In this document: positions 9,831 to 38,260 of the stretch, piece by piece
Position numbering within the stretch: the first letter of the stretch is position 1
How the letters are laid out: every line of letters begins with the position of its first letter
From: Methanosarcina spelaei
GTDB lineage: Archaea > Halobacteriota > Methanosarcinia > Methanosarcinales > Methanosarcinaceae
NCBI RefSeq assembly: GCF_002287235.1
Contig: NZ_LMVP01000201.1
Location: 1 to 39,477 of the forward strand
Direction: 5' to 3'
Length of the DNA: 39,477 nt
The notes under the pieces: generated by a model
Databases searched by the model: none
The model's input: only the letters and a program-made list of their open reading frames with translations
What the model was told of the DNA's origin: nothing
Translations under genes and position numbers: made by a program

Positions 9831-10172
9831 CTGTCATATATTATGCTGTTCATTCACATCACTTTCGCGATATGAGTTAAGGTAATTTGGTCATAAAGGC
9901 AATTGCTCATATACCTTCTATCTAATAGTCAAACCATCAAAGATCAGAAAATAATCACAGATACTACATAAGTATAAAATTGAATTGTTTGAGAGTCTAC
10001 ACAGAAAGTTTATAAACTTTTAGTAAAAAAGAAGTTTCTAGGGTTTAAATCTCTTTACCAAAATTGCCCCAATTCAGTGAAACAGGCTTTAAAAGGCATG
10101 GCTAATGTTAGCTTTAAGAATATTTAAGCTTCCTAAACTTGCTTCTGGGTAAAGCATATAGGAGTAATTTAA
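9831..10172. other. Intergenic region
   Basis: No gene seen. At its right end AGGAG (10160-10164) sits where the ribosome binding site of the following secreted-protein gene should be. Confidence 0.35.
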
Positions 10173-11045
10173 ACGATAACAAAGAAGAAATTTCGAATAG
10201 AGATTTTGCTTTTAGCAATATTACTACTATGCACGATGTTTGTGTCTACTGTAAGTGCACAAGATAATTTAACAACAAATGTTAAGCCCTCTGAACTGGA
10301 ACAAGGTTTAATAGATGCACTAAATTCTGATACAAAAAATCTGGCTGCAGACTATGTGATTGCTAATTATTGTAAAGCAACCGAAGACAAAATTTCAACA
10401 TCAGAAAACAATAATGTTTCAAGCAAAAGTAATTCAAGGACATATCAACTGGAAAGTGGATCTAATATAACTTTTATAAACCATGGTAATTTTTTAATTA
10501 ATGATTTGAAAGTTGACAATAATACTATTCAACCAGTTAATAAAGAAAATGAGATGAACTTACAATCCGAAGATAATTCTTTTTATACACCTTCTCTAAT
10601 ATCTTCCGTAAGTGAATACAATTCTTTTGGTTGGAAATTGTTTACTGTCTACACACAAGGGTATTTCGGGTATGATAATAAATCTGTAAAACCTTATCAT
10701 GTAAATTCATGGTATGTACATAATATGCCTTTCAATCTCTGGCAGATTTCTAACTGGGAAGAAGGTACGGATATAATTTCCAGTAATACGGCAGAAGTTT
10801 ATAGCCAGGGGAATTTCCACTATGGTTTTGAATACAAAGGTAACAGCTTAACCGTTCAGAACTATTACATTAAAGTTTATTTGTCGTGTGATCAAAATGG
10901 AAATTACGGAGCTTATTATTCTCTAACCGAGCTTATCCCAAAACTCAAAGTTGGTTCTTTGAATTTGAGCTTTGGATCATCAACCGAATATCCGAGGATA
11001 AAGAATGGCTCTGCAACCCTTACTATACAGGACGACTTATCATGA
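10173..11045 (+). CDS. Secreted protein of unknown function, non-ATG start
   Basis: The mature protein (about 260 residues) is rich in Asn, Ser and aromatic residues, with repeated YNSFGWKLFTVY / NSWYVHNMPFNLW / NYYIKVYLSC segments that suggest beta structure. The N-terminus ITKKKFRIEILLLAILLL...VSA is a clear signal peptide. It resembles MITKKKFRS, the leader of the lipoprotein at 30.8 kb, but here the expected ATG is ACG (10173-10175), 8 nt after AGGAG. Translation could start at this ACG, the next ATA, or TTG at 10206, which shortens the leader. A small membrane protein overlaps its stop. I do not recognise a family. Confidence 0.6.
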   Translation, partial: TITKKKFRIEILLLAILLLCTMFVSTVSAQDNLTTNVKPSELEQGLIDALNSDTKNLAADYVIANYCKATEDKISTSENNNVSSKSNSRTYQLESGSNITFINHGNFLINDLKVDNNTIQPVNKENEMNLQSEDNSFYTPSLISSVSEYNSFGWKLFTVYTQGYFGYDNKSVKPYHVNSWYVHNMPFNLWQISNWEEGTDIISSNTAEVYSQGNFHYGFEYKGNSLTVQNYYIKVYLSCDQNGNYGAYYSLTELIPKLKVGSLNLSFGSSTEYPRIKNGSATLTIQDDLS

Positions 11046-24516: not shown

Positions 24517-25170
24517 TCAGTTACCCGAATTTTGTTTACGTTGTGACCATTTTATTCCCAAAACCATAAGTACCAGTAGTGCTCCAAGAATTATACTTCC
24601 TTTTAAAATAGGAAGAATCGGATAATCAAGTATGAGGTAACGTACAAAAATGAAAACACATGCGATTACATAGAAAATCAGCAATCTTACAGGATCTTTT
24701 TGACCTGCTTCCGTGCTTTCATCATATATAATCTTTGATAGTACGAACCCCATAAATAATAAAAACAAAATCCAGAATATCTGATTTATGTTGTAAACCA
24801 AGGAAGCGTAGAGGTAAGTGATATACAGTAGTATTATAAGAATCAGAAGACGTAGATTTTTTTTAATAGAGAAAGAGATACTTGTTTCTTCATTTTCATA
24901 AGGCTTTTTAGTTTTTTCTTCATGAGATTCGGATTCAAAAATATGACCTATTATTAAAGAAATTGATGGGTTCAATAATTGTTCTTTTTCTCTATACCAT
25001 ACCAAGAGTGAGAAATGGATTGCTGCAAAAATTAGGGGTAAAATAAAAACAATCTGGGGTTCTACAGAAAGATATCCTTTTTTATATAAATACATAAAAA
25101 AAAGAAGAAAAACGAAATAAACTGCAGTTGAACGCCATAATTCTTGTTTTACGATATTGTCAATCTTCAT
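24517..25170 (-). CDS. Multi-pass membrane protein, unknown family, with decayed paralogues nearby
   Basis: This 217-residue protein has about six hydrophobic segments (two near residues 13-60, four between 105 and 207). A hydrophilic cytoplasm-sized loop (ESESHEEKTKKPYENEE, about residues 79-95) lies after the second. No catalytic motif seen. Two relics of the same gene lie in the window: its C-terminal third at 29041-29216 and the loop region at 38027-38260. Repeated duplication next to an archaeocin-like gene would fit an immunity or export protein, but that is only inference. GGTGGCC lies upstream of ATG at 25170. Confidence 0.7.
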   Translation of the reverse strand: MKIDNIVKQELWRSTAVYFVFLLFFMYLYKKGYLSVEPQIVFILPLIFAAIHFSLLVWYREKEQLLNPSISLIIGHIFESESHEEKTKKPYENEETSISFSIKKNLRLLILIILLYITYLYASLVYNINQIFWILFLLFMGFVLSKIIYDESTEAGQKDPVRLLIFYVIACVFIFVRYLILDYPILPILKGSIILGALLVLMVLGIKWSQRKQNSGN

Positions 25171-25316: not shown

Positions 25317-25869
25317 AAATTAATTAGAAACTTAGCTAGATTAATCAAACGTGGACTACTTATACCTGCACTTCAATACTCAAAAGTTTTTTCTCAATAA
25401 AGGGATTAATAGATTATTTTAAAAATACAGTCTTTTTGATGGTAAGACCGAATTTTACAAGGCACCTAACTTTGCGATCCCGCTTATGATTTCATTTTGA
25501 ACTGTAAGATATAGGATGAAGCCGGGACTACTAAGACAAGTATGAGAGCGTAATGCAAACTGAATTAACGAGATCGGAGAACCACTCTCTTATATCAGAT
25601 ACTTGTTTATTTTTAAATTGCTATATACAGCTATCGGAGGATTAATAGTCTGCAAACAGGAGTAAAGACATAGCAAACTTTAAATTATCTTGTAGTCACC
25701 GACTTTTCCTTTGAAGCATTCAGGATTAAGCAAAATTAACAGCCACTGCTTAACCCTAAAAACACTTTCATTGTCTAAAAATTCATAATCCTTTAAAAGT
25801 TTTATGTGTAATCTCTCAAACAATCAAATAAAAGAAAATATCTACAGATCTGAAATGGGTTAATAAAAA

Positions 25870-25892
25870 ACAGTTAGAGAGATTGGCCGGAA
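25870..25892. repeat. Single arm of the 23-bp palindromic repeat
   Basis: ACAGTTAGAGAGATTGG followed by CCGGAA is identical to the right arm of the palindromes at 32189-32278 and 36824-36913. The left arm is eroded (AATCTCTCAAAC around 25810). Confidence 0.8.
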
Positions 25893-26236
25893 GTTATATC
25901 TAGGGCAATCCAATACAAATTGATTTTTACTCTATTTTTTCGATAGTATATTTATTTTCTTCGGTATTCCATATTACCTGAATTTGGAAAATGTAACTGA
26001 TTACGTAAAAGTTAGTACCAAAAGTGAATACTAAATCTTTCGAATAACAGATACAAATAAATGAAAGTACTATTCACCGTACCTTTTTTTGACTATGTAT
26101 TTTGTTTTTATACTGGAGTTCGGTTGTTCTAAGTTGTTTTTTCAAACCATGCTAACTAAGGTCCTTACAAGAAAGAGTGAGATAAATACTTTATTTTTTT
26201 ACAATTTATGTTTATATATAAATTAGGCATCTAATA

Positions 26237-26434
26237 GACTCTGTTCCAAAATCCAGTGATTTTCGTATTTTTTAATTGAAGACCTGAGTTAGCAAGAAGA
26301 GTCCAGTTATCATCAAAATCAATATTCGACATCTAAAGACTTCAATTTTTAAGTTATGTCACAAGGATTATGACTAATTACAAAACCTAGTGATTTTGAA
26401 CTTTAAATTCATCACTAGGTTTTGGTACTGATTC
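26237..26434 (+). mobile_element. MITE type B, copy 2 (198 bp)
   Basis: Starts GACTCTGTTCCAAAATCC and ends ACTAGGTTTTGGTACTGATTC, its imperfect inverse (last 20 bases: CTAGGTTTTGGTACTGATTC). The 8-bp target duplication ATCTAATA flanks it at 26229-26236 and 26435-26442. It has the same internal structure as the copy inside the archaeocin gene. No coding capacity. Confidence 0.9.
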
Positions 26435-26748
26435 ATCTAATATCATTTTCATCCGTACGAAATTCAATACTAAAAGTAAGGAAAAATAAACGTTTAATTT
26501 CCCAATTGAAGTGCTTAAATCCTTTAAATATCAACTAAACTGTTTAATAAATGTACCTTAATTGAAGAAGGACTGACACTACGTTTAATTGGGCAAATAA
26601 GAATTAATTTCCATTAAAAACTAATCGTTTTTCACGGGTTTACTTAATTTTATACAAATTTGTGAATAGTACCTGCTTCTCAAAATTGATTAATAACTCC
26701 GTACACAACCATTTTTTCTAATTTTTGTTTTCCTGCGGGTCACTAGTT
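26435..26748. other. Intergenic region downstream of the long lipoprotein
   Basis: About 310 bp, AT-rich, after the lipoprotein stop codon. Nothing supported. Confidence 0.35.
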
Positions 26749-27849
26749 TTATTTCTCTTCTAAGATTGATTCAGCGACTTTTAGCATTTCGTCTTTTTCC
26801 AGGGAAGCGCAAAGACTTAGATCAACATCTCCTAACTTCCACGTCAAAAGTTTCGTTTTCCCCATCGAAAGATATTTTCCTTCTATCCCATTAATCTGAA
26901 TATCTTCGCCTTTATCCATAATTGTAGCATCAGATGACTGGTTTTTAGAGACGGTTTCTGCGAGATTTATAACTGCTTTATCTTTTGTGTATGTCAGTTC
27001 GACGGTCTCAGAAATCTGACTTTCAGAAGAGAATTGGCTGTTGTTGTAGATCATTGAACTATTGAATTCATAGCCTTCAGGAAGGTAATCCGGAGTAAGG
27101 ATCTTAAAACTGGCTTTCTTTCTGGCCTCTTCAAGGCTTAATTCTTCAGGAAGCTTAATTTCTCCCATATCTACTATATTTGCGCCTTCAGGGATCTCAA
27201 ACTTGAATTCCGAGTCCGGAATTCCGGTGTTAACTTTCAGGTCTTGAATTTCCAATTTCATGGTTCGATTTCCATCGCCGTTATAAGTTTCATATCTGAG
27301 AGGCATCCATGTTTCCTGATCTACCCAAATTTTTGTCTTGTATATCAGTTCGTAATCCCCATCGTTTTCTTTTGGAGTTGTCTCCAGCAGATAAGTTTTT
27401 CTTCCATCTATATTCTCAACGCTAAGTACTGTTACATTAGTGTCATTAAGAAATTCACTTATAATATTGGTATAGTCATTTTTCGTAAGTTCAGAAGCTC
27501 TGGAAATTTTCATTTTTGTTACCGTATTAGTATCTGGGGTGTAACTCCACAATATTTTCCCATCTGAAACGAATATAGTTTGATTTTCTTTACCGGACTC
27601 TGTTACAATACTTTTAATCATATTAGGTTTTTTGAACATAGTTTTGGATTCTGTCTCCTTGTTTTCCCCTCCAAAGTAAGAGGTCATGTGCATTGTATAT
27701 GAATAATCTCGAGTGTTGTTCTCTTTATCCATCATCTGAGCTGCAATTTGTTCTGCACTCAGGTTTTTTTCCATGCAGCCTGAAGCAAAGAGGGCTACAA
27801 TTATGACAGTCAGTACAAATATTGATCTAAATTTTTTCATTGTTGTCAT
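26749..27849 (-). CDS. Secreted lipoprotein: LolA-like domain plus DUF4367
   Basis: This 366-residue protein has a lipoprotein-type signal (FVLTVIIVALFASGC, lipid-accepting Cys near residue 25). Residues 30-230 form a LolA/MucB-like beta domain with SYTMHMTSYFGG, MFKKPNMIKSI, WSYTPDTNTV, YLLETTP and DQETWMPLRYETY. From about 240 a second region, SFKILTPDYLPEGYEF... to GKTKLLTWKLGDVDLSL, resembles DUF4367. The LolA-like half is closely similar to the 229-residue lipoprotein at 30150-30839, so they are paralogues. ATG at 27849 is chosen because it aligns with the paralogue's start. The fold binds acyl chains or lipopeptides in relatives; role here unknown. Confidence 0.87.
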   Translation of the reverse strand: MTTMKKFRSIFVLTVIIVALFASGCMEKNLSAEQIAAQMMDKENNTRDYSYTMHMTSYFGGENKETESKTMFKKPNMIKSIVTESGKENQTIFVSDGKILWSYTPDTNTVTKMKISRASELTKNDYTNIISEFLNDTNVTVLSVENIDGRKTYLLETTPKENDGDYELIYKTKIWVDQETWMPLRYETYNGDGNRTMKLEIQDLKVNTGIPDSEFKFEIPEGANIVDMGEIKLPEELSLEEARKKASFKILTPDYLPEGYEFNSSMIYNNSQFSSESQISETVELTYTKDKAVINLAETVSKNQSSDATIMDKGEDIQINGIEGKYLSMGKTKLLTWKLGDVDLSLCASLEKDEMLKVAESILEEK

Positions 27850-27944
27850 ATTAATCATCTTTCACAGTTAATTTTTCTATAAATATTGTAAAACCAATAA
27901 TCTTGATGACTTTTGTAATTATCACAAAGCTTTCAAAATTAAGC

Positions 27945-28985
27945 TTAAAACATTATCCATAAACCAAGTAACATAAGCACAAATCCGCTAATTTTTTTCA
28001 AATATATTTTATATGAACGAATTTGTTTAGATAGAGTATAGCCTCCTATCAAGCCAATTCCAATAAAAGGCGTCAATACTCCAGCGCTGAAAGCAAGTAA
28101 AAGAATCAAATTATTAAACGTTCCAGTTGTAACGGTTTTATTTAGCAGTACAAGGAGCATCGGAGCAGTGCAGGGAACTTTTACAAACGAAAACAATATC
28201 CCAAGGAAAAAAATTCCACCCAAAGTACCTGCATATTTCCTTGCAGAGTTCTGAAAATAGTTATCCAGAGCAACAGGTGATTTTAAAATTCCCATAAGGT
28301 TTAATCCAATGAGGATTATAATTATGCCTGTAATATAAGAAAAACTTTCAAAACTGGGAATTGACTTTCTAAAAGAGAGCAAACAAATACCTAAAACTAT
28401 ATAAGAACTTACCAGTCCCAATCCAAATATTATTGCACGTACCATACCGTTTTTTGTGCTACTACTTGTTCCTGCAGTAAAGCTTAAAAGAAAACCCAGT
28501 ATAGCCATCAGGCAGGGAGAAAAACCTGCAAAGAAGCCAAGTGAATAGGCAAACGGCAGATTAAAGTCTGTACTTATATACTCATTATATTGTTCTTTTT
28601 TCGGTATTTTTTCTGTGGAATTTTTAGTATTCTTTTTCTCTTCCAAAAGATGTTCATTGATCGATGTTTTTAACTTCTTTTCAGTAATTTCTTCTTTTGG
28701 AATTTTTGTTTCATTGTTTATCACAATAGCCGGGACTTCAAGAAAACCATACTTGTTCCATTGATTGAAACCATCAGCAGTAATAGTATCAATTCGTGTT
28801 ATCACGATGCTATCGTTATATTGAACTTCTATTCTATCGACAATGGGATCAGTCACTTCGCAATCGTGACAGCCTTTTTGATGGAAATACTGGATTGTAA
28901 CTGGGCCTGCATAAGCCAGTGGTATAAAAAGAAGAAATAAACAAATGACAGCCACGACAGCTATTGTATGAGAACTGCGTTTCAT
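27945..28985 (-). CDS. Thioredoxin-CcdA (DsbD-like) fusion thiol transporter
   Basis: This 346-residue protein starts with a signal peptide (cleaved near AYA). A thioredoxin-like domain of about 90 residues follows, with FHQKGCHDCEVTDP (CxxC) and the cis-Pro turn in FLEVPAIVI. From about 150 a CcdA-type domain with six transmembrane segments carries the paired cysteines in FSPCLMAI and KVPCTAPML. CcdA proteins move electrons from cytoplasmic thioredoxin to outside thiols. The fused domain would be the external partner. An obvious client is the ten-cysteine peptide encoded 2 kb upstream on the same strand (inference). ATG at 28985 follows AGGGA. Confidence 0.9.
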   Translation of the reverse strand: MKRSSHTIAVVAVICLFLLFIPLAYAGPVTIQYFHQKGCHDCEVTDPIVDRIEVQYNDSIVITRIDTITADGFNQWNKYGFLEVPAIVINNETKIPKEEITEKKLKTSINEHLLEEKKNTKNSTEKIPKKEQYNEYISTDFNLPFAYSLGFFAGFSPCLMAILGFLLSFTAGTSSSTKNGMVRAIIFGLGLVSSYIVLGICLLSFRKSIPSFESFSYITGIIIILIGLNLMGILKSPVALDNYFQNSARKYAGTLGGIFFLGILFSFVKVPCTAPMLLVLLNKTVTTGTFNNLILLLAFSAGVLTPFIGIGLIGGYTLSKQIRSYKIYLKKISGFVLMLLGLWIMF

Positions 28986-29040
28986 GGGAATCCCTAACAA
29001 GTATAGTTCTTCATTTCACAAATCTCGGCGTCAATAAAAA

Positions 29041-29216
29041 ATGAAGTTAGTTGTCTGAATTTTGTTTAACCGTGATCATTTATCTCCAAAATCAAAAGTA
29101 CCAATAATAATATTCAAAGAGTTATGTTTCCCTTTAAAACATGAAGAATAGATTAGTCAAGCATAAGGTAGCAGACAAAAATAAAACAAATATGACTATC
29201 ATAGAGAATTGACAAT
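29041..29216 (-). pseudogene. C-terminal relic of the 24.5-kb membrane protein family
   Basis: The DNA matches the 3' end of the gene at 24517-25170 (compare CTGAATTTTGTTTAACCGTG with CCGAATTTTGTTTACGTTGTG-like sequence there) across about 170 bp, with indels. Remains of the last two membrane segments only; no open frame. It lies directly after the stop of the next upstream gene. Confidence 0.75.
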
Positions 29217-29230
29217 TTTTGATACTTCCT

Positions 29231-29842
29231 TTATTTTTTCTCTAAAACAATGTACGATTTTTTCCACGTTCCATAGCTTTTATCGAAATAGATAATTCTA
29301 CGATTTTTCTTTTCCCAATATATTAGCTGAAAGTAGTTAAGCCACATGCTGATAAGGAGACCCCCAACGAATGAAAACATTGATTGTGTCATTGATTGTA
29401 ATGTGAGTTCCTGAAAATAATAATAAGGAGTGAGCATCAAAGCTGCAGTGATTATGATAAACAGTACTTTCATATTTGGATGATCAATAGATGGCTGCTT
29501 TACTAGGGCATCATATCTTTGCATTTGAGTATTCCAGTAAAATAAAGTTGAAAACAGAGCAATTAAAAACCCAGCAAGTAAAAAAATAATGTTTGCACCA
29601 AAATAAGCCATAATTAAGGAGAATATAATAGTGAAGAAAAAATTAACCAGAAATGTTCTTGTACTTGCTTTTCGAAACCATCGCAGATTCTTCATATTTT
29701 CTCTTTCTCCCTTTGCTCTGTTTGGAATATTCAATCCAAAAATTTCAAGATGAATATGCTGTCTGACTTCAGATAATCTCGAATTAGAGCACCAGCTTAC
29801 TAGCCCATTTATGTTTTTTGTGAAGAGATTCATCTTACCCAC
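29231..29842 (-). CDS. Four-span membrane protein of unknown function
   Basis: The frame gives 203 residues. Four hydrophobic segments fall at about 65-85, 87-105, 125-141 and 150-172. The C-terminal tail (about 30 residues) is basic and aromatic (YWEKKNRRIIYFDKSYGTW). The first 49 residues are hydrophilic and unlike a signal, and an internal ATG at 29695 (MKNLRWF) has GGGAGA upstream, so a 154-residue protein is equally likely. No family recognised. It lies between the Trx-CcdA gene and the short lipoprotein, so could serve the archaeocin locus. Confidence 0.65.
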   Translation of the reverse strand: MGKMNLFTKNINGLVSWCSNSRLSEVRQHIHLEIFGLNIPNRAKGERENMKNLRWFRKASTRTFLVNFFFTIIFSLIMAYFGANIIFLLAGFLIALFSTLFYWNTQMQRYDALVKQPSIDHPNMKVLFIIITAALMLTPYYYFQELTLQSMTQSMFSFVGGLLISMWLNYFQLIYWEKKNRRIIYFDKSYGTWKKSYIVLEKK

Positions 29843-30032
29843 CTAATTCTCTTATATGAGCTCAAATTCTTTATATCAATCTTTTATTTCTTAGAATTTA
29901 TACGGTTGAACTTACTAGTTAACGACGCTAACTTTTTAAAATGTTTAACTCATAGAGTTAACAGAAAAGTTTATTGATCTTGATTTTAAACTTCAAGTGT
30001 GTAAGTTCTATTTCTAAACAATTCGTTAACTA

Positions 30033-30149
30033 TTTTTTATGATCCATAGTCTCAAGTTTAAGCTTTGTTTCCTCTGCAAAATCCCAAATATGTTCGATAC
30101 ATTCTCTGTACCTGTCGTCTTCCGGATTCAATTCCTTAGGCGGGTTAAG
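30033..30149 (-). pseudogene. In-frame coding relic directly after lipoprotein stop
   Basis: After the lipoprotein's TAA the same frame continues LNPPKELNPEDDRYRECIEH and IWDFAEETKLKLETMDHKK before a stop at 30033. The composition is clearly protein-like (acidic, helical), but no start exists. It is a leftover of a different gene's C-terminus, joined by a deletion. Confidence 0.5.
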
Positions 30150-30839
30150 TTATTTTAAATCTACTACTTTTGCGCCACTTGGAATTTCAAATTTAAACTC
30201 AGAATCTGGGATTTCTGTGTTAACCTTTAGGTCTCGAATCTCGACTTTAATAGTTAAATTTCCATCTCCGTTATAAGTTTCGTATCTTAGAGGCATCCAT
30301 GTTTCCTGATCTATCCAAATTTTTGTCTTATATATCAGCTCGTAATCTCCATCTTTTTCTTTTGGAGTTGTTTCCAGCAGATAAGTTTTTCTTCCATCTA
30401 CATTCTCAACTCCAAGTACTGTTACATTAGTATCATTAAGGAATTCATTTATAATATTAATGTAGTCATTTCTCGTAGGTTCGGAAGCTTTAGGGAGTTT
30501 GATTTTTGTGACTGTGTTTGTATCTGGGGTGTAACTCCAAGCAATTTCCCCATCCGAGATGCTTATTGTCTTATTCTCTTTTCCGGGTTCTGTTATAATC
30601 TCTTTAAACATGTTTGGTTTTTTGATCATGATATTTGATTCACTTTCTTCAAGCTTTCCCCCCATATATGAGATCATGTGCGCTGTGTATGAATAATCTT
30701 GAATGCCATTCTGTTTATCTAGCATTTGAGTTGCAATCTCTTCTGCACTTATATTTTTTTCAGTGCAACCTGAAGCAAAAAGAGCCATAATTATAGCTGC
30801 TAGCATGATTATCGATCTAAATTTCTTCTTTGTTATCAT
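30150..30839 (-). CDS. LolA-like lipoprotein, short paralogue
   Basis: This 229-residue lipoprotein (signal LAAIIMALFASGC, Cys near residue 25) matches residues 1-230 of the longer lipoprotein at 26749-27849 almost throughout, including SYTAHMISY, YLLETTPKE, DGDYELIYKTKIW and QETWMPLRYETY. It ends at VVDLK, exactly where the longer protein enters its DUF4367-like domain. The DNA after its stop is unrelated, so the second domain was either lost here or never added. It starts MITKKKFRS at ATG 30839, after AAGGATT. It lies about 200 bp downstream of the archaeocin-like gene. Confidence 0.87.
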   Translation of the reverse strand: MITKKKFRSIIMLAAIIMALFASGCTEKNISAEEIATQMLDKQNGIQDYSYTAHMISYMGGKLEESESNIMIKKPNMFKEIITEPGKENKTISISDGEIAWSYTPDTNTVTKIKLPKASEPTRNDYINIINEFLNDTNVTVLGVENVDGRKTYLLETTPKEKDGDYELIYKTKIWIDQETWMPLRYETYNGDGNLTIKVEIRDLKVNTEIPDSEFKFEIPSGAKVVDLK

Positions 30840-31034
30840 ATTACTAATCCTTTGATAGTAATTTTCTTCTTTTATATTTTGTGAAAATCATAACCGAAAA
30901 ACTGTTTTTCGGTTATCTTAATTAGCCTGGTTGTATTATCAAAATGTACTTAGTTGTCGATTTCTTTGTTCTATATATAACTTAATACAAAATAAGTAAA
31001 AATAAAGGCCGTTTTTAATTAGAAATCTCAATTA

Positions 31035-31583
31035 TCAGCAAAACTTTGCTTTTTGGCATAAGTAGACTGAGGTATGTCCACATCCATAAGTTCCTATAGT
31101 ATTACATATAGCATATACAGCTAAAGTGCATGCAATCCCCCCAACAATCGATAGGTCTGCCATAGCACATAGTAATTGCCCTCCTTTACCACATCCATGC
31201 TTACATGCTAAGTAGACCAGAGCTTGACATGCCTCACATCCAGTAGAGCTAGTTGTTACAGCATCAATGGCAGCTGAGCTTTTCATAGCCATGACACTAC
31301 TAATATTACCACTTTCTGTTACTATGTTATTCCCTTTTACAGTTAATACTTCTGCAGTCAATTTGTCCTTATCGGCTCGGAGAATTTTTGCTTCAGCTTT
31401 GATAATTTCATTATTTTTAAAAACAACATAAATTCCAGCAGAGGAATCATCCGGGCTTTCAAATGACAACGCTAATCCCTCTATATAACTCCCATCTGCT
31501 TGAATAGCACCTAACCCCAAATAATCAGTTTTATTTAATTCATATCCTTTAGACTCTGTTCCAAAATCCAGTGATTTTTGCAT
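31035..31583 (-). CDS. C-terminal part of the archaeocin precursor (after MITE)
   Basis: This 182-codon frame begins with 13 codons from the MITE end (MQKSLDFGTESKG), then continues the original protein at YELNKTDYLGLG. It carries the region SSAGIYVVFKNNEI and the ten-Cys domain at about residues 113-182 with a glycine-rich hydrophobic core (LSIVGGIACTLAVYAIC). Without the signal peptide encoded upstream, any product from the MITE's ATG would stay in the cell. So it is probably non-functional as a secreted peptide, although an internal immunity function could remain. Confidence 0.7.
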   Translation of the reverse strand: MQKSLDFGTESKGYELNKTDYLGLGAIQADGSYIEGLALSFESPDDSSAGIYVVFKNNEIIKAEAKILRADKDKLTAEVLTVKGNNIVTESGNISSVMAMKSSAAIDAVTTSSTGCEACQALVYLACKHGCGKGGQLLCAMADLSIVGGIACTLAVYAICNTIGTYGCGHTSVYLCQKAKFC

Positions 31584-31748
31584 TTTTGATAGAAAGTCTT
31601 AATTAGCAAGAAGAATCCAGTTTTTATCAAAATCGATATTCGCTATCTAAAGACTTGAATCACTAAGTTGTATTACATGGATGGTGACCATTTATAAAAT
31701 CTAGTGATTTTGAGTTTTACATTCATCACTAGATTTTGGTACTGAGTC
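31552..31748 (+). mobile_element. MITE type B, copy 3 (197 bp), inside archaeocin gene
   Basis: Starts GACTCTGTTCCAAAATCC and ends TTTTGGTACTGAGTC. Flanked by the perfect duplication ATCCTTTA at 31544-31551 and 31749-31756. Orientation is the same as the copy at 26.2 kb. The perfect duplication and restored frame on removal show a fairly recent insertion. Confidence 0.93.
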
Positions 31749-32019
31749 ATCCTTTAGATGCTAATCTCTTTATTAGTTTTTCTACATCTTCAGATTCTAA
31801 TGCTTTTTTTAAATTCTTGTCAACTATAGTGAGATCTAAACTTGAAATGTTTGAAAGATTACCTATACCTGTACACTTGGGACAATCTGCGAGCGTTCCA
31901 GTTTGCGAACAGTCTGCTCCAGCTGGACATGCCATTGCAGGCGTAACCAGTATCATACCTATAACGAGCATTATCATAGAAAGCCCGCTAATTCGTTTAA
32001 CTTTACTATTTAATTTCAA
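31747..32019 (-). CDS. N-terminal part of the archaeocin precursor (before MITE)
   Basis: This 90-codon frame starts at TTG (32019) and gives a signal peptide ending VTPAMA, then CPAGADCSQTGTLADCPKC with four cysteines, then a helical stretch (LTIVDKNLKKALESEDVEKL) ending LASKG at a stop made by the MITE end. The shortened product would be secreted but lacks the ten-Cys domain. The ribosome binding site sits in a small hairpin (see 32029-32051). Confidence 0.72.
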   Translation of the reverse strand: MKLNSKVKRISGLSMIMLVIGMILVTPAMACPAGADCSQTGTLADCPKCTGIGNLSNISSLDLTIVDKNLKKALESEDVEKLIKRLASKG

Positions 32020-32640
32020 TCTATTCCACCTCTTTACTTTTATTCAAGAGGCAAGAAGCAAACTTTAAAATAGTTACAAAGTATATACTTCATGCCTTCG
32101 GGTATGCAGGGTTCAGCATTGCTCTCAACTCTACTGAACCCTATATAACATTCCCACTTATTCAGTTTTAGAGAATCCTTTATAAGTTTTCCGGCCAATC
32201 TCTCTAACTGTCAGAGATCAGAGAATCTTTACAGATCTAAAATGAGCTACAAAAAACAGTTAGAGAGATTGGCCGGAAGTTATATATAGAGTGGTTTGAT
32301 GCAAATTATTTAAAATCTACAGCTAGTAACCAGACTTTTGTTGAAAAAGAATTGCCGATGTATTCTTTGAGATATTGTATTTTTTTATGGCAAAGCCGGA
32401 CTTTACGAGATCACTTGGTTTTAAGACTTTGTCGTTAATGTATTTTTATCGCAAGATGAGTGAAGTCATATTTTATTCTTGGGACTGTATAAGATTTAAG
32501 GTTTAAGAATAAGTAGATTGGAGAAAAAAGATCTGCTTAATTAAAAAAGGATGTAGTGATATTGAAGCAGACTTTTTCAGGAACTTTTTGATAATCAGTA
32601 TTTTTGAACCTTAATTTGACAGGTTCTACTAATAGATACA
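32020..32640 (-). promoter_or_regulatory. Duplicated leader/promoter region, copy U1 (archaeocin)
   Basis: About 600 bp matching 36654-37250 closely over the first 300 bp and more loosely beyond. From the gene outward: CCTCTT/AAGAGG hairpin (32029-32051) that includes the ribosome binding site; an AT-rich TATA-like stretch near 32081-32088; a 9-bp stem AGGGTTCAG/CTGAACCCT (32108-32142); the 23-bp palindrome (32189-32278); then shared sequence such as GGACTTTACGAGA and AATAAGTAGATTGGAGAAAA. Conserved structures in both copies suggest a shared regulatory circuit. Confidence 0.7.
32189..32278. repeat. Palindrome with perfect 23-bp arms
   Basis: TTCCGGCCAATCTCTCTAAC plus TGT (32189-32211) is the exact inverse of 32256-32278, with a 44-bp centre. 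An almost identical palindrome is at 36824-36913 and one arm at 25870-25892. It may be a folded RNA, a binding site or a small mobile unit. Confidence 0.9.
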
Positions 32641-33060
32641 GTATTTTTCTTCAAAAAATACATCGCGTTGACACATACCTATGAGAAAAAAATGAAAGAT
32701 GTCAAAAATCAATAAACACATAAGATAAATTCATTGGTCATCGGTTAAGGAAAAATCGTTATCAATTGCATTGATTTTCATAAAATTTGTTAAATTATTC
32801 ATCAAATGCAAAACTGGAATCTGATATCGATTTCAATTTAAACACTAAACATTTGGGTTTGAGTTTTTCCGTCGAAATCGAGATCAGCAGCTCAAAATCC
32901 TTAACCGAATACAAATGAAGATAAATTTGAATCGTATGAAGAAAACAGAAATCTGAAGCCCATTTATACCTTATAAAATGTATACTTTTGTCAAAGTAAG
33001 GTAATAAAGTACGAATTTAAAAATTAGATGAATACGGATTTTTGTGCCTTACTCGATATA
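32641..33060. other. Intergenic region holding MITE A copy 2
   Basis: Beyond the duplicated leader, this stretch holds the type A MITE and about 140 bp downstream of the M28 peptidase stop. No gene. Confidence 0.5.
32732..32917 (-). mobile_element. MITE type A, copy 2 (186 bp, reverse)
   Basis: Inverse of 5734-5919, with the same length and almost no differences (one seen, in a T/C near the middle of an AATTT run). Flanked by AAGATAAATT at 32722-32731 and 32918-32927, a target duplication unlike that of copy 1. Confidence 0.92.
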
Positions 33061-35010
33061 TTATATACCCTCTTTCTTTTCAGCTTCAGAGACCTTTGGA
33101 CCCGAAAATCTCTTTTTTATCCGCTTCCCATAAAAAGCAAAAGCAGCCAAAATTGCAAATATACCTGAGATGAAGACAAGAGGATTTCTACGATCCATGA
33201 ATGGGTTATCTACCTGGACTCGTTCCATGGAATATTTTCTAAAATCTGGAGTTTTATTCTCCATGAACAGAGTTCCACTTTCATTTTCAAACCATATTTT
33301 TAAATTGTGACTACCGGGAGTGAGAACAAAAGGATTCTCGGGATCCAGAGGCCCAAAATCATCCAGATAGTAATAAATAGTTCTGTTTGAGTCCATGGGA
33401 TTTTCGGGATAACCAATTACATATTTTATCTCGTTCACAGAACTCTCTATTTCCTGATGAGGGGGCTCAGAACTTCTATTTTGCTTTTCCTCATTTACTA
33501 CATTTATGCTCTCGGTGCCTCTGTTCCCATAACGGTCGGTTGCCAGAACTTTGATGGTATGTCCTCCTTCCGGAAGCGAAAAAGTCCTGCCTGATCGGAG
33601 ATTTCCCAGGCTCTGGTTGTCAAAAAAGACTTCCACAGTACTCTCGGGGTCAGAGACGTTATACATGAGTTCAAATGAGGCTTCTGAAACTTTCGGATTG
33701 GAAACATTAACAAGAGGAGCCTGATTCTCATCTGGATCTGCCAGATAAATAATGCTTCTAGCAGCCAGAGCACTTGCATTCCTGATAACCGAAAAATCGA
33801 CATTATCAACCGTATCACTCAACTCGTGGAAATTATCATGACTTTTGTAATTGTGGTGGCAAAGGACTACTGCAGGAATATAGTTTTCCCAAAAGATTTC
33901 ATGATCTCCTCTTTCTATAAGTGCAGATTGAATTCTGATCCCTGAACTTTTTGCTTCATTTTCAAAAATATCTCTAAGCCAGGCATATTGGGGAAGATAG
34001 CATACGTAAAGAGGTTCGTTTCCCACGCAATCCACGTTAACAACCGCAACAATGTTGTCTTTCAGCTCAGGATGGGCTTTAACCCATGCCTGGCTGCCAA
34101 GAAGATTAGACTCTTCTCCGGAAAAAGCAATGAAATATATTGTCCTGTTAAACGACTCATTCTGCAATGTTTTTGCAAGTTCAAGCATGCAGGCAACTCC
34201 ACCTGCATTGTCATCCACTCCGGTTCCGTTGGCCGATTCGCAAACGTAAGTATCGGACCAGACCGGCCAGAGATAGGGCCTTTTAATCCTGGAATCAAAA
34301 AAACCTCGTATACCGGATTTAGGAGGTACAAGTATTATTGAATCATAATGTGCGGTTACAAGAATAATCTCATCCTTAAGGACATTTCCATCTTTAACTC
34401 CCACAATGTTTGTGCCACTCACATTCCAGTAATTGAAATTCCTTGTACGCACCCTTACGGAAAAATTATCAAGAGAGACTTGCAGACCTGCGTTTTCCAT
34501 CTCATTTTTTATGAATAGAGAAGCTTCGGCAGCGTTTTTACTTCCGATTTTTCTTTCCCCAAAAGAAGATATGACCCGGGTTGAGTTTTCGATTCTTATT
34601 TGGGAAATGTCAAACGGAACTGATGTATTATTGTAATGTATGCCGGAATCGGAAGAGAGTATCGTATCCGAGAATGCAAGAGCTGTAGGAAAAGATGCTG
34701 AGTAATGTCTGGTGCCCAGCAGGGTTAAGATGCTTTTTATTGGAAAGATGGGATTTTCTCTATCGTTTAGTTGAGTATGGCCCGTAAGAGATTCTTCACT
34801 TAATTTTGAGAGCATGAGAATTGTTTTGTCTGGACTATCATGCCAGCCAGAGTACGGGATATTGTATACAAGTCTTTCTGGACAACTATTTGTTCCATTA
34901 ATTTCATAAAAATCAGAAGAAAGTAAATGGTAATCACGGACAAGTATGGTTCCCGAAAGTAAAACTAAAATTAAAAAAGTAATAAGTATGTTTGTTAATT
35001 TTCTTCCCAC
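33061..35010 (-). CDS. Membrane-anchored M28 family zinc aminopeptidase
   Basis: This 649-residue protein has an N-terminal membrane anchor or signal (residues 5-25) and an M28 catalytic domain at about residues 150-430. Zinc and catalytic residues are visible: LVTAHYDS (His), GVDDNAGG (bridging Asp), FSGEESNLLGS (Glu-Glu), VNVDCVG (Asp) and HDNFHELSDT (His). An Ig/PKD-like and a second beta region follow (430-610), then a C-terminal transmembrane segment (about 618-633) and basic tail. It should trim peptides at the outer face. GTG at 35010 follows GGTGAG. It lies 14 bp from the upstream beta-helix gene, so they are co-transcribed. Confidence 0.92.
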   Translation of the reverse strand: MGRKLTNILITFLILVLLSGTILVRDYHLLSSDFYEINGTNSCPERLVYNIPYSGWHDSPDKTILMLSKLSEESLTGHTQLNDRENPIFPIKSILTLLGTRHYSASFPTALAFSDTILSSDSGIHYNNTSVPFDISQIRIENSTRVISSFGERKIGSKNAAEASLFIKNEMENAGLQVSLDNFSVRVRTRNFNYWNVSGTNIVGVKDGNVLKDEIILVTAHYDSIILVPPKSGIRGFFDSRIKRPYLWPVWSDTYVCESANGTGVDDNAGGVACMLELAKTLQNESFNRTIYFIAFSGEESNLLGSQAWVKAHPELKDNIVAVVNVDCVGNEPLYVCYLPQYAWLRDIFENEAKSSGIRIQSALIERGDHEIFWENYIPAVVLCHHNYKSHDNFHELSDTVDNVDFSVIRNASALAARSIIYLADPDENQAPLVNVSNPKVSEASFELMYNVSDPESTVEVFFDNQSLGNLRSGRTFSLPEGGHTIKVLATDRYGNRGTESINVVNEEKQNRSSEPPHQEIESSVNEIKYVIGYPENPMDSNRTIYYYLDDFGPLDPENPFVLTPGSHNLKIWFENESGTLFMENKTPDFRKYSMERVQVDNPFMDRRNPLVFISGIFAILAAFAFYGKRIKKRFSGPKVSEAEKKEGI

Positions 35011-35024
35011 ATTCTCACCAAAAA

Positions 35025-36080
35025 CTACTTTTTTCTCAAGAGTATAAATGCTATTCCAAATATAACAACTATCAGGAAAGGACAGATAAACACTGTCTGT
35101 GAAGCATTCGTATCATGGATTTTGCCTTCCTTAATTTTATTATTGTAGATTTGGTTGGTAGAGCCTTCCATTACGATACTTTCACTGTTATTTGACAGGA
35201 AATTATCTTTAACTGTATTATTGCTGGAATTCCTTATTATTGAAACTCCAGTACGGCTGTTGTTTGATATGGAATTATTTTTGATCATATTATCGCTGGA
35301 ATCAGTTATTTGAACTCCAACGAGGCTCAAAGTTACATTGTTATCTGACATTGTGTTGTTATTGCTGGACTCAGTAATTAGAATACCGTCATCACTATTT
35401 GAGACCATATTGTTTTTCAGTATGTTGTTATTACTGCCATCTTCAATCCAGATACCGTCTTCTTCGTTCGAACTTGCATTATTATAACTCAAAACATTAT
35501 TTTTGGAGCCCCAAAAGTAGATGCCAAAACGGTTTTTAAAAGCATCATTATTGATGAGATCATTGCCGTTAGAATTTGTAAGACTAATGCCTCTCTCATT
35601 ATCAGAAACAGTGTTGTTGTTCAGCATGTTATAATCGGAACTCTGGAGATCTATACCGACTATGTTGTTTGATAACTTGTTGTTACTAATAATGCTGTTA
35701 TTAACTCCTTCGAGATGCACTCCAGCGATTGGAGATGTAACAATGTTATTGGCACCAGTAATTTTAAAGCCACTGATAGTTACGTCATCCTCAGTCACAT
35801 TGAAGATATGTTCTCCAGGATTGGAAGACTGAATTATGGTATCATCTGGATTGCCAGAGTTAGATTTTATGGACACAGATTTATTAACAATCACATTTTC
35901 TGTGAAGTTCCCACTGTAAACAAGAATTGTATCGCCATCTTTTACATTATTGATAGCTTCCTGAATAATTGTGTAATTCGCTTCATCATTTTTGCTCACT
36001 GTGACCGTATCTGCTTCTGCGGTGCCTGCAATTAATATTAGATAAACAAACACCACTGAAAAATAAGCTTTAATTTTCAT
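35025..36080 (-). CDS. Secreted beta-helix (NosD-like) protein with C-terminal anchor
   Basis: This 351-residue protein has a signal peptide (cleaved near AEA). It then has the family start NYTIIQEAINNVKDGDTILV and NVIVNKSVSIKSNSG, about ten beta-helix coils with SSxNxxxxNxxSNN, and a C-terminal transmembrane segment (PFLIVVIFGIAFILL) with a KK end. It probably displays the helix on the cell surface; ligand unknown. ATG at 36080 is preferred over GTG at 36089. It precedes the M28 peptidase gene in one transcription unit. Confidence 0.88.
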   Translation of the reverse strand: MKIKAYFSVVFVYLILIAGTAEADTVTVSKNDEANYTIIQEAINNVKDGDTILVYSGNFTENVIVNKSVSIKSNSGNPDDTIIQSSNPGEHIFNVTEDDVTISGFKITGANNIVTSPIAGVHLEGVNNSIISNNKLSNNIVGIDLQSSDYNMLNNNTVSDNERGISLTNSNGNDLINNDAFKNRFGIYFWGSKNNVLSYNNASSNEEDGIWIEDGSNNNILKNNMVSNSDDGILITESSNNNTMSDNNVTLSLVGVQITDSSDNMIKNNSISNNSRTGVSIIRNSSNNTVKDNFLSNNSESIVMEGSTNQIYNNKIKEGKIHDTNASQTVFICPFLIVVIFGIAFILLRKK

Positions 36081-36170
36081 ATATATCACTTTAAGAAATG
36101 GTCTCCAAAAAATTCAAAGGAAGGTACAATGTAACCTTCCCTATAAAGCCCTTCATTGATTAGCTATCAG

Positions 36171-36653
36171 TCAATTATAAACAGTTGCTGAACCATCGTA
36201 TCCAGGAGTACCATTTAGGTCAACGCCTTTAACCTTGATTTTCCAGGTACCTGCTGTTAGGTCATAACCGGGATCATAGTTGAAATCCAAATGAGTCTCA
36301 GTACCATATATAGTGTCGCCAGCTACCTTTGTGCCGTCTGGCTTGATTAATTCTATACTAATATCACCATTTATATCAAGAGTGTGTATATTGGATACTA
36401 GCACATCTGCTGATACTCTGTCCCAGCCCTTTCCAGACGGTACAGTAAAGTAGTAGGTATCTGTGTTTGAGGGCTGACTTAAATCCCCACTAATATCTAT
36501 GTACAATATAGGGGACAGGATTCCAACATATCCATCTTTAGCATTCTCCACTACATTAACAGCTTCTTCTGCATTGGCTGCCGGCATAAAAGCCATACAT
36601 ATTAGGAACATTGTCAAAAACAATGTTCCGGTGCCAAATTTCTTTGTGATCAT
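36171..36653 (-). CDS. Small secreted protein with PPC-like beta domain
   Basis: This 160-residue protein has a signal peptide (cleaved near ANA) and one beta-sandwich domain: TDTYYFTVPSGKGWDRVS, then VLVSNIHTLDINGDISIELI, KPDGTKVAG and TAGTWKIKVKG. This is the pattern of bacterial/archaeal pre-peptidase C-terminal (PPC) and proprotein-convertase P-like domains. No catalytic residues. It carries the same leader as the archaeocin-like gene, including the hairpin around the GAGGTG ribosome binding site, so the two are probably expressed together. Start ATG at 36653. Confidence 0.82.
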   Translation of the reverse strand: MITKKFGTGTLFLTMFLICMAFMPAANAEEAVNVVENAKDGYVGILSPILYIDISGDLSQPSNTDTYYFTVPSGKGWDRVSADVLVSNIHTLDINGDISIELIKPDGTKVAGDTIYGTETHLDFNYDPGYDLTAGTWKIKVKGVDLNGTPGYDGSATVYN

Positions 36654-37250
36654 TTATATTCACCTCTTACTTTTATTCAAGAGGCACGAAGCAAACTTTA
36701 AAATAGTTATAAAGTTATGTACTTCATGCCTTTGGGTATGCAGGGTTCAGCATTGCTCTCAAACTCTACTGAACCCTGTAGAACATTCCCACTTATTCAG
36801 TTTCAGAGAATACTTTATAAGATTTCCGGCCAATCTCTCTAACTGTCAGAGATCAGAGAATCTTTACAGCTCTAAAATGAGCTACGAAAAACAGTTAGAG
36901 AGATTGGCCGGAAGTTATATATAGAGCAGTTTGATGCAAATTATTTAATATTTTATAGCTAGTAACCAGGCTTTTTGTTGGAAAAGAACGGTTGATATGT
37001 TCTTTGAGACACTGTATTTTTCTATGGCAAAATCGGACTTTACGAGACCATCTGATTTTAAAACTTTGTCACCATGCCTTTTTACCCCGTAAGACGGATG
37101 AAGTCAGCTTTTATTCTTGTGACTATATAGATTCAGGGTCTAAGAATAAGTAGATTGGAGAAAAAGATTTGCCCAATTAAAAAAGGACTTAATGAGATTA
37201 AAGCGAATTTTTTCAGGAACTTTTTAATAATCAGTATTTTTAAAACCGGA
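36654..37250 (-). promoter_or_regulatory. Duplicated leader/promoter region, copy U2
   Basis: Counterpart of 32020-32640. CCTCTT/AAGAGG hairpin at 36663-36684 masks the ribosome binding site; a TTTATAAC-like box on the minus strand lies near 36706-36713; the AGGGTTCAG/CTGAACCCT stem is at 36742-36777; the 23-bp palindrome at 36824-36913. The copy ends about 10 bp from the stop of the regulator gene at 37263, which may mean regulator and leader were once duplicated together. Confidence 0.7.
36824..36913. repeat. Palindrome with perfect 23-bp arms, second copy
   Basis: Same arms as 32189-32278 (36824-36846 and 36891-36913) and a nearly identical centre. Confidence 0.9.
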
Positions 37251-37262
37251 TTCAAGGTTATT

Positions 37263-38027
37263 TTATCCATATTTTTCAATCAAGTTTTCATAAGAAGGAT
37301 TTACTCTATAAATGATGTTTTTTCCTTTTCTTTCTTCATTTATGAGTTCCACTTCTTTAAGAGTTCTCATATACCAGCTAATTGTAGCTCTGGAAACTCC
37401 GATTTCATGTGCAAGAGCTGAGTTTGTATTATATTTACCATTTTGTATTTCTGAAATTATTCTTTGATTTGTTACGTTTTGAAGAGCAGAAATAATTTTT
37501 CTTTCTTCTTCATCATAAGTGGAATTATTTTCGAAATACCTAATTTTTCCGCCGTCTTCATGGACTTCAATTTTGTTCTGAACTTCCAGAATAGTTATAT
37601 GATGCCTTACTCTTCCCCTGCCTAAGCCTGTTTTTTCTACAATTTCGCCAATGTATGCTCCCGGTTTAGTCTTGATATACGTATAAATACTGGACCGATC
37701 AGGATTATCTAGTATATTTCTTTTATCTACAATTTTGAATCCCAGTACCACGAAAATAAGCTTTGCAAAATACAGAATTACATCTATTATTGATAAAATT
37801 TGCATCGCAGCTAGCCAGATTAGAAACTGCCAGTAAGGTATCTGAGTGACTTCAAGTTCAACTACTTTTTCTCCGTTAATTGAAGCTCCGGCTTGATCAC
37901 CTGGAGCTGGGCTTACAATATATTCAGTAGCCTCAGCTGTTGTTGTTAAAAGGAAAAATAGTAAACAGAAGATAAGCTTTTTTTCAAGCTTAATACTGGT
38001 AAACAATAAACGTATACTATGTTCCAC
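37263..38027 (-). CDS. Membrane-anchored regulator with two winged-helix domains
   Basis: The 254-residue protein has an N-terminal signal-like segment (about 17-33), an outside loop of about 35 residues with AGASINGEKVVELEV, and a second hydrophobic region (about 66-97, two segments). Inside are two winged-helix domains: TKPGAYIGEIVEKTGLGRGR then VRHHITILE (about 118-160), and NSALAHEIGVSRATISWYMR with TLKEVELI (about 200-240). This layout is common among Methanosarcina transcription factors thought to sense outside signals. It lies directly upstream of the duplicated leader U2. GTG at 38027 is the start used. Confidence 0.88.
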   Translation of the reverse strand: MEHSIRLLFTSIKLEKKLIFCLLFFLLTTTAEATEYIVSPAPGDQAGASINGEKVVELEVTQIPYWQFLIWLAAMQILSIIDVILYFAKLIFVVLGFKIVDKRNILDNPDRSSIYTYIKTKPGAYIGEIVEKTGLGRGRVRHHITILEVQNKIEVHEDGGKIRYFENNSTYDEEERKIISALQNVTNQRIISEIQNGKYNTNSALAHEIGVSRATISWYMRTLKEVELINEERKGKNIIYRVNPSYENLIEKYG

Positions 38028-38260
38028 TAACCGATTCTCCGCAAACTTTGAACTTCCAGGTTTCTTGTTGTACGTATCCCTGGGAGGGATTTATACTGAG
38101 ATCTTCTTTCAGTCAAGGAAAAGACCCTTATTTCTTTATTTTCATAAGGCTTTTTAGCTTTTTCTTCATAAGGTTCGAATTCAAAAATATGGCTGGCTAT
38201 TAAAAAGTAGTATTCTGAAACCATGGCTGTAAAGGTGATCTGCGAACTCTTTCTGAGCAA
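38027..38260 (-). pseudogene. Relic of the 24.5-kb membrane protein family (loop region)
   Basis: The 77-codon frame contains ASHIFEFEPYEEKAKKPYEN then KEIRVFSL, which aligns with IIGHIFESESHEEKTKKPYE then NEETSISF of the protein at 24517-25170. The rest (LPGIRTTRNLEVQSLRRIG) has no match and the membrane segments are gone. TTG start without ribosome binding site. A fragment, not a gene. Confidence 0.72.

Follow-up and report, generated by a model that had tools for sequence, protein, structure and literature searches.

Why would a region of about 600 bp occur twice in one archaeal locus, each time directly ahead of a gene for a secreted protein, and what do the two copies control? We address this question in a 39,477-nt stretch of Methanosarcina spelaei DNA (contig NZ_LMVP01000201.1, from an assembly of 5.09 Mb in 559 contigs), hereafter called the window. 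We put the probability at roughly 0.8 that the two copies, U1 and U2, are a duplicated sRNA162-type locus, in which an antisense RNA acts in cis on the mRNA leader through a proposed switch at the ribosome-binding site. The RNA family is a known one, and what our analysis contributes is new members, a better-defined conserved partner, and a far larger set of related leaders; the mechanism we infer is offered as a testable proposal.

A duplicated control region ahead of two secreted-protein genes

U1 (32022-32608) and U2 (36640-37244), both on the minus strand, align at 87% identity over 593 bp with their order kept (E 4.8e-201). The match starts about 19 bp past the stop codon of a regulator gene and runs to the start codons of the two secreted-protein genes, confirming the duplicated control region reported in a first-pass annotation. 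The structures listed there as common to both copies are also present in order: an inverted repeat, a TATA-like box, a stem, and a hairpin over the ribosome-binding site. U2 does adjoin the 3' end of the regulator gene, whose product carries two winged-helix domains (Pfam) and, by eye, hydrophobic N-terminal segments. Shared control of both secreted-protein genes is likely. The features of the locus are as follows.

25707-25896, plus strand: third sRNA162 copy, decayed (RF02792, 94.2 bits)
31035-31583, minus strand: C-terminal part of a halocin-like precursor, with a halocin C8-like domain (TIGR04449, E 7.7e-13, 49.2 bits)
31552-31748, strand not assigned: MITE-like mobile element of 197 bp inside the halocin-like gene (8-bp flanking duplication; 41 copies in the genome)
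31747-32019, minus strand: N-terminal stretch of the same halocin-like precursor, the U1 partner (90 aa, UUG start; aligns to residues 1-88 of an unbroken 267-aa relative)
32020-32158, minus strand: 5'UTR of the U1 mRNA, ~139 nt, its start placed as for U2; UUG start codon at 32017-32019
about 32030-32051, minus strand: U1 ribosome-binding-site hairpin, counterpart of that in U2
32094-32282, plus strand: U1 antisense sRNA162 (RF02792, 160.1 bits, E 1.8e-31, full length)
32178-32289, arms 32178-32211 and 32256-32289: U1 inverted repeat, SL3 of the sRNA with its flanks (repeat search and covariation)
36171-36653, minus strand: partner of U2, a secreted PPC-like protein of 160 aa (Pfam PPC at 22 bits, under the cut-off of 25.9)
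36654-36792, minus strand: 5'UTR of the U2 mRNA, ~139 nt, its start placed by the 65-nt overlap in M. mazei (PMC3510493) and alignment
36663-36684, minus strand: U2 ribosome-binding-site hairpin, CCTCTT...AAGAGG (two pairs changed on both sides among 23 leaders)
36697-36705, plus strand: putative TATA box of the U2 sRNA, TTTAAAATA, read from the sequence, ~27 nt from the sRNA 5' end
36728-36917, plus strand: U2 antisense sRNA162, with SL1, SL2, linker and SL3 (RF02792, 162.8 bits, E 4.5e-32, full length)
36813-36821, minus strand: putative TATA box of the U2 mRNA, CTTATAAAG, read from the sequence, ~25 nt from the presumed mRNA start
36813-36924, arms 36813-36846 and 36891-36924: U2 inverted repeat, SL3 of the sRNA with its flanks (repeat search and covariation)
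37263-38027, minus strand: MM2441-type regulator of the ArsR class, membrane-anchored and with two winged-helix domains (Pfam HTH_HVO_0163_N and HTH_24)

Both copies encode an antisense RNA of the sRNA162 family

An Rfam scan of both strands returned three matches to RF02792 (sRNA162), all on the plus strand and opposite to the genes, and all above the gathering cut-off of 78 bits over model positions 1-190. That U1 and U2 are two sRNA162-type loci is near certain, and the U2 sRNA has a predicted fold of -79.1 kcal/mol (z -9.2). In the third copy, the SL3 arms are mismatched in the alignment, with one of each sequence type, and no start codon was found at 70-84 nt and no gene at the expected place.

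In M. mazei, sRNA162 is a constitutive RNA of 191 nt from the intergenic region that separates MM2442 from MM2441, the gene of an ArsR-type regulator (Jager et al. 2012, PMC3510493). Gel shifts and footprints showed that nt 1-65 of this sRNA, which overlap the 5'UTR of MM2442, bind to it, so that both RNAs, their ends, and this binding are published for that species, while the linker of the sRNA binds the MM2440-41 mRNA, with evidence from compensatory mutations (PMC3510493). Overexpression of sRNA162 slightly reduced the MM2442 transcript, and overexpression of its 5' fragment gave no phenotype (PMC3510493). One or two copies were known to that study, which described the duplicated paralogue sRNA171 and proposed transposition for it (PMC3510493). 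The window shares with sRNA162/sRNA171 the same RNA family at full length, with the same stem-loops; it also has a duplicated pair within a few kilobases, and U2 keeps the regulator-sRNA-secreted gene order. It differs in having SL3 of the other sequence type, a linker without pairing to the regulator mRNA, three copies rather than a pair, and a PPC-like protein and a broken halocin-like gene as partners.

By homology to M. mazei, the window copies fit this geometry, and we place the probable ends of their sRNAs and mRNAs on the same basis. This placement bears on what may be called a leader. The 23-bp palindrome, previously taken as part of a 600-bp leader, lies upstream of the mRNA start as mapped in M. 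mazei, and so belongs to the sRNA as stem-loop 3; the transcripts would thus start downstream of this one of the shared structures, an outcome that the first-pass annotation had named as speaking against its reading. With the TATA-like box CTTATAAAG ahead of an mRNA start near 36792, the mRNA leader would be ~140 nt long and not 600. The label therefore holds for the gene-proximal ~140 bp, and the rest of the duplication comprises the promoter, the body of the antisense sRNA, and a conserved remainder of ~330 bp. This remainder, past the sRNA 3' end (36918-37244 and 32283-32608), is conserved between U1, U2 and other genomes and holds no long reading frame. The inverted repeats of U1 and U2 have arms of 34 nt that are 85-88% complementary around a 44-nt loop. 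We had considered a divergent or convergent promoter pair around the palindrome and dropped it, as the M. mazei transcript ends put the mRNA start between the palindrome and the gene.

Conserved RNA structure and a candidate switch at the ribosome-binding site

We aligned 25 full-length sRNA copies and scored SL1-SL3 against 500 shuffles. Three stem-loops with a single-stranded linker are conserved, with 97.2% of cells paired, and covariation exceeds chance, at 38 double-change cells against 11.4 in shuffled alignments and a score of 0.238 against 0.140 (0/500), although the shuffles overstate significance because the 23 to 25 aligned sequences are related and not independent events. SL3 occurs as two sequence types, with TATGTGTAA or CCGGCCAA as the 5' arm, and the 3' arm switches along with it. 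Three copies (L072:9178-9366, L070:12366-12557, L045:6579-6779) keep the stem of SL2 but show its apical part as the reverse complement of that in the other copies, as if flipped between the arms.

The search for compensatory changes that the first-pass annotation had suggested for the hairpins thus comes out strongly for the sRNA, and weakly for the hairpin over the ribosome-binding site. In 23 leaders, that hairpin together with the leader stem at nt ~21-68 has 92.9% of cells paired, and five pairs changed on both sides compared to 1.8 in shuffled alignments (2/500). Most leaders have CCTCTT/AAGAGG in the hairpin, and others CCTT/AAGG or CCTCA/TGAGG.

We propose the following course of events. 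A plus-strand antisense RNA of ~190 nt would start ~75 nt upstream of the start codon and run away from the gene, across the mRNA start and promoter. Its nt 1-65 would be complementary to nt 1-65 of the mRNA leader, which would thus be its target in cis, with the other copy's leader as a probable second target. The mRNA leader is predicted to hide its ribosome-binding site within the short hairpin, and nt 1-65 of the leader may help to keep this hairpin open by competing for the anti-Shine-Dalgarno strand. By covering nt 1-65, the sRNA would let the hairpin close, and translation would be repressed. The candidate partner under this control is exchangeable, being a secreted and often Cys-rich protein, with halocin-C8-like precursors among them.

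Folding predictions are consistent with such a switch. The mean predicted opening of the ribosome-binding site in 23 leaders is 0.25, and 0.12 when nt 1-65 are occupied; opening drops by more than 0.05 in 12 of these leaders and rises in one. The predicted change is small in the window itself (0.06 to 0.04 for U1, and 0.21 to 0.15 for U2). In most copies, the native nt 1-65 are predicted to open the site more than shuffled ones do, and in many, the downstream part of the leader is predicted to close it more than shuffled versions. A long-range leader stem, AGGC.../...GCCT, competes for the same CCT and is conserved (91% paired). Covariation of this stem, which is assumed for the open state, is near chance, so we infer the switch, and repression as its direction, from these predictions.

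Partner genes encode variable secreted proteins

By a crude rule, applied to frames of at least 30 aa, 20 of the 21 partner proteins are signal-peptide-like, compared to 130 of 410 control genes taken from the same stretches. Partners include Cys-rich secreted proteins, PPC-like proteins, longer secreted proteins that by eye resemble papain-type peptidases, and others, and several partner genes are broken or shortened. The Cys-rich proteins have a common N terminus, MKLNSKVRKISGLFMIMLVxGMILVTPAMACPAGT, and diverge beyond it. The PPC protein assigned to U2 in the first-pass annotation has a sub-threshold Pfam match behind its name, and the archaeocin assigned to U1 bears out in its domain while its gene is split. 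The TIGR04449 domain spans residues 116-182 of the C-terminal frame, well above the cut-off of 24 bits, and that frame aligns to residues 85-267 of the 267-aa relative. A single precursor frame is thus interrupted in the window by the 197-bp element, and unbroken relatives occur in other genomes. Of the element's 41 copies, 23 are identical; in the same genome, it also interrupts two further genes of the secreted set that carry a leader (C44:4271-4467 and C190:30937-31133).

Within the genus, TIGR04449 has six matches, five of which lie just after an sRNA162 copy, while the sixth begins at a contig end. These genes resemble that of the halocin C8 precursor ProC8 (TIGR04449; PMC11509114) in encoding a precursor of ~270-280 aa that is secreted and has a Cys-rich halocin C8-like domain at its C terminus. 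They differ from it in lying under an antisense sRNA162 locus and in a signal region that is not the haloarchaeal one, and the gene in the window is in addition interrupted, with antimicrobial activity of the C-terminal peptide and immunity through the N-terminal part being putative. Within the collection of papers searched, none links sRNA162 with halocins.

The fixed position of the partner genes also suggests a different start codon for the M. mazei gene. In the Cys-rich group, a UUG start follows AAAGAGGTG at 74-77 nt from the sRNA 5' end, which, with the mapped 65-nt overlap, puts the start codon ~140 nt into the mRNA. For MM2442, the published start lies 184 nt from the mRNA start and lacks a ribosome-binding site, and an upstream open frame was noted (PMC3510493). 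In genome G008, which we take to be M. mazei (scores of 215 and 205 bits, and a linker helix of -17.2 kcal/mol), an internal Met at codon 15 would fall at ~182 nt. The published start would then be internal, and the upstream open frame may be the true N terminus.

A constitutive, structured, multi-copy antisense RNA over the mRNA of a possibly harmful peptide calls to mind type I toxin-antitoxin systems. In those, the toxin is a small, hydrophobic, intracellular membrane peptide, whereas the sRNA162 partners are secreted proteins of ~140-420 aa (with signal peptides, and mostly 139-424 aa), and their toxicity is putative. The likeness may be in how the cassettes work, as an analogy.

The neighbouring regulator and pairing in trans

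A regulator of the same family as that beside U2 lies 75-610 bp from the sRNA 3' end in 14 cassettes, while U1 and many other copies have no adjoining regulator and keep their partner gene. The closest named relatives of the window's regulator are in Methanosarcina MAGs, with four loci among named genomes. Linker pairing with an MM2441-type mRNA has been shown for M. mazei, where it underlies the proposed control of the regulator by the sRNA, and is outside the Rfam definition of RF02792. We searched the 14 sRNA-regulator pairs for the best near-contiguous helix between linker and regulator start region, with 150 shuffled linkers each. The M. mazei-like copy G008a forms a helix, CCCCAUAAUCCUU/AAGGUUUAUGGGG, of -17.2 kcal/mol that no shuffle reached (0/150), close to the published -17.6 (PMC3510493). 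In this helix-only test, no pairing stands out in the other 13 pairs; for U2 in the window, the best helix has -6.3 kcal/mol, and 94 of 150 shuffles did as well. The trans target thus seems to be a peculiarity of an M. mazei-like lineage. The helix-only test took the place of RNAduplex runs with the full linker and start region, which, with large loops allowed, could not tell true pairs from false ones.

At 38027-38260, upstream of the regulator gene and in the position of MM2440, lies a frame that seems to have been cut short and joined to a segment resembling the membrane protein at 24517-25170. The frame of relatives at this position is conserved and ends ...FKVYGESVSGT...YTFNVYQH, unlike that of the window.

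Copies, possible recombination and a larger leader family

At E <= 1e-5, sRNA162 is found in 19 of the 31 genomes of the genus, with up to seven copies per genome, and 16 of these genomes are over the cut-off; among 14 control genomes, M. acetivorans alone gave a match. The sRNA gene often lies between a gene for an MM2441-type regulator and one for a variable secreted protein.

Genome G002 is collinear with the window (97% over 5.2 kb) and lacks the ~6-kb stretch between the 25.8-kb copy and U1 (25934-32174), which holds halocin-like, DsbD-like and lipoprotein genes. It has one hybrid sRNA copy at the joint (L058:13084-13230), and this difference fits recombination between sRNA162 repeats, in either direction. 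Between U1 and an M28 peptidase gene lies a second repeat of 187 bp (32731-32917), with an identical copy in contig C190 (L039:8809-8995), that is absent from the collinear place in G002.

Diverged leaders keep the order of elements found in sRNA162 loci, with an antisense TATA-like site and SL1-like, SL2-like and SL3-like parts. A model built from ten of them, R1, finds 20 copies in the source genome and 3-22 in 25 of the 31 genomes of the genus; in a search of 100 genomes of the order, matches outside Methanosarcina came from three genera, all of its own family. An Rfam scan reported no family among the R1 leaders scanned. In 50 of the 56 R1 leaders with a following frame, that frame looks signal-peptide-like. 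Going by sequence, sRNA162 loci and R1 leaders are related control regions, and the set is much larger than was known before. Single hits to one SL3 arm elsewhere had suggested lone promoters, a reading that we dropped when they turned out to represent the near arm of diverged leaders lying on the opposite strand. At 9984-11045, the window itself has a weak R1-type leader (34 bits, minus strand) followed by a plus-strand gene for a secreted protein of ~280 aa, in which the codon aligned with the start of relatives is ACG.

Alternative explanations

The main competitor to an RNA that pairs with the leader is control at the level of transcription, in which antisense transcription into the mRNA promoter sets expression by interference or occlusion and RNA pairing is secondary. 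At the mapped positions, the sRNA gene does cover the mRNA TATA box and start, and the M. mazei authors left this possibility open (PMC3510493). Interference alone requires neither the conservation of SL1-SL3 as RNA structure, with its many compensatory changes, nor the in vitro binding of sRNA nt 1-65 to the 5'UTR in M. mazei (PMC3510493), and both count against it; we consider it unlikely, while giving it appreciable weight. We see far less reason to think that the sRNA works chiefly in trans on the membrane regulator next to it and thereby controls the secreted proteins, with the overlap in cis incidental. The compensatory mutations in M. mazei (PMC3510493), the helix of the M. mazei-like pair, and the 14 adjoining regulator genes speak for such a route, but the pairing is missing from 13 pairs, that of the window included, and partner genes are kept at U1 and at many copies where no regulator adjoins. 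This explanation is improbable.

In a model that follows the first-pass annotation, the palindrome and stems would be binding sites of the regulator, which would directly drive both secreted genes in answer to an outside signal. A regulator next to U2 and many other copies, and an inverted repeat near the mRNA TATA box, are what this would lead one to expect, but the repeat is SL3 of a transcribed RNA, and its arms change together between two types, which would be odd for a fixed operator. We hold this to be quite doubtful, if marginally less so than control through the regulator in trans. It is harder still to see the repeated leader as a MITE-like element spread by transposition, without a regulatory role. 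It is repetitive and has a long inverted repeat, and transposition was proposed for sRNA171 (PMC3510493); yet every intact copy has, at a distance of 74-77 nt, a start codon provided with a ribosome-binding site, a fixed spacing that speaks against this origin, as does the conserved RNA structure, and the true MITE-like repeats of the same locus look quite different. We regard this last explanation as very improbable. For the inverted repeat itself, the Rfam hit and the compensating arm changes led us to reject both the operator and the MITE reading. A duplicated sRNA162-type locus acting in cis remains our preferred explanation.

Meaning for Methanosarcina and its family

sRNA162 is among the few archaeal sRNAs with experimental evidence for a target, and its cis target has hitherto had no assigned function or regulatory outcome. 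The class of that target is now identified as secreted and Cys-rich, with a halocin-C8 domain in several genomes. Our analysis also suggests a corrected start codon for MM2442-type genes and proposes a concrete switch, and the published trans target is probably not general.

More tentatively, and with slightly less than even confidence, we suggest that sRNA162 belongs to a multi-copy system of cassettes of antisense RNA and hairpin in the Methanosarcinaceae, of which it was the first to be described, with restraint of competition-type proteins, such as halocin-like precursors, as its main role, and the methylotrophic trans target of M. mazei as a local by-product. If so, each genome would hold ~20 diverged copies and one to seven sRNA162 copies as exchangeable control for secreted proteins. 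Should the larger leader family also make antisense RNAs, this would be an unusually large set of antisense-controlled secreted proteins in archaea.
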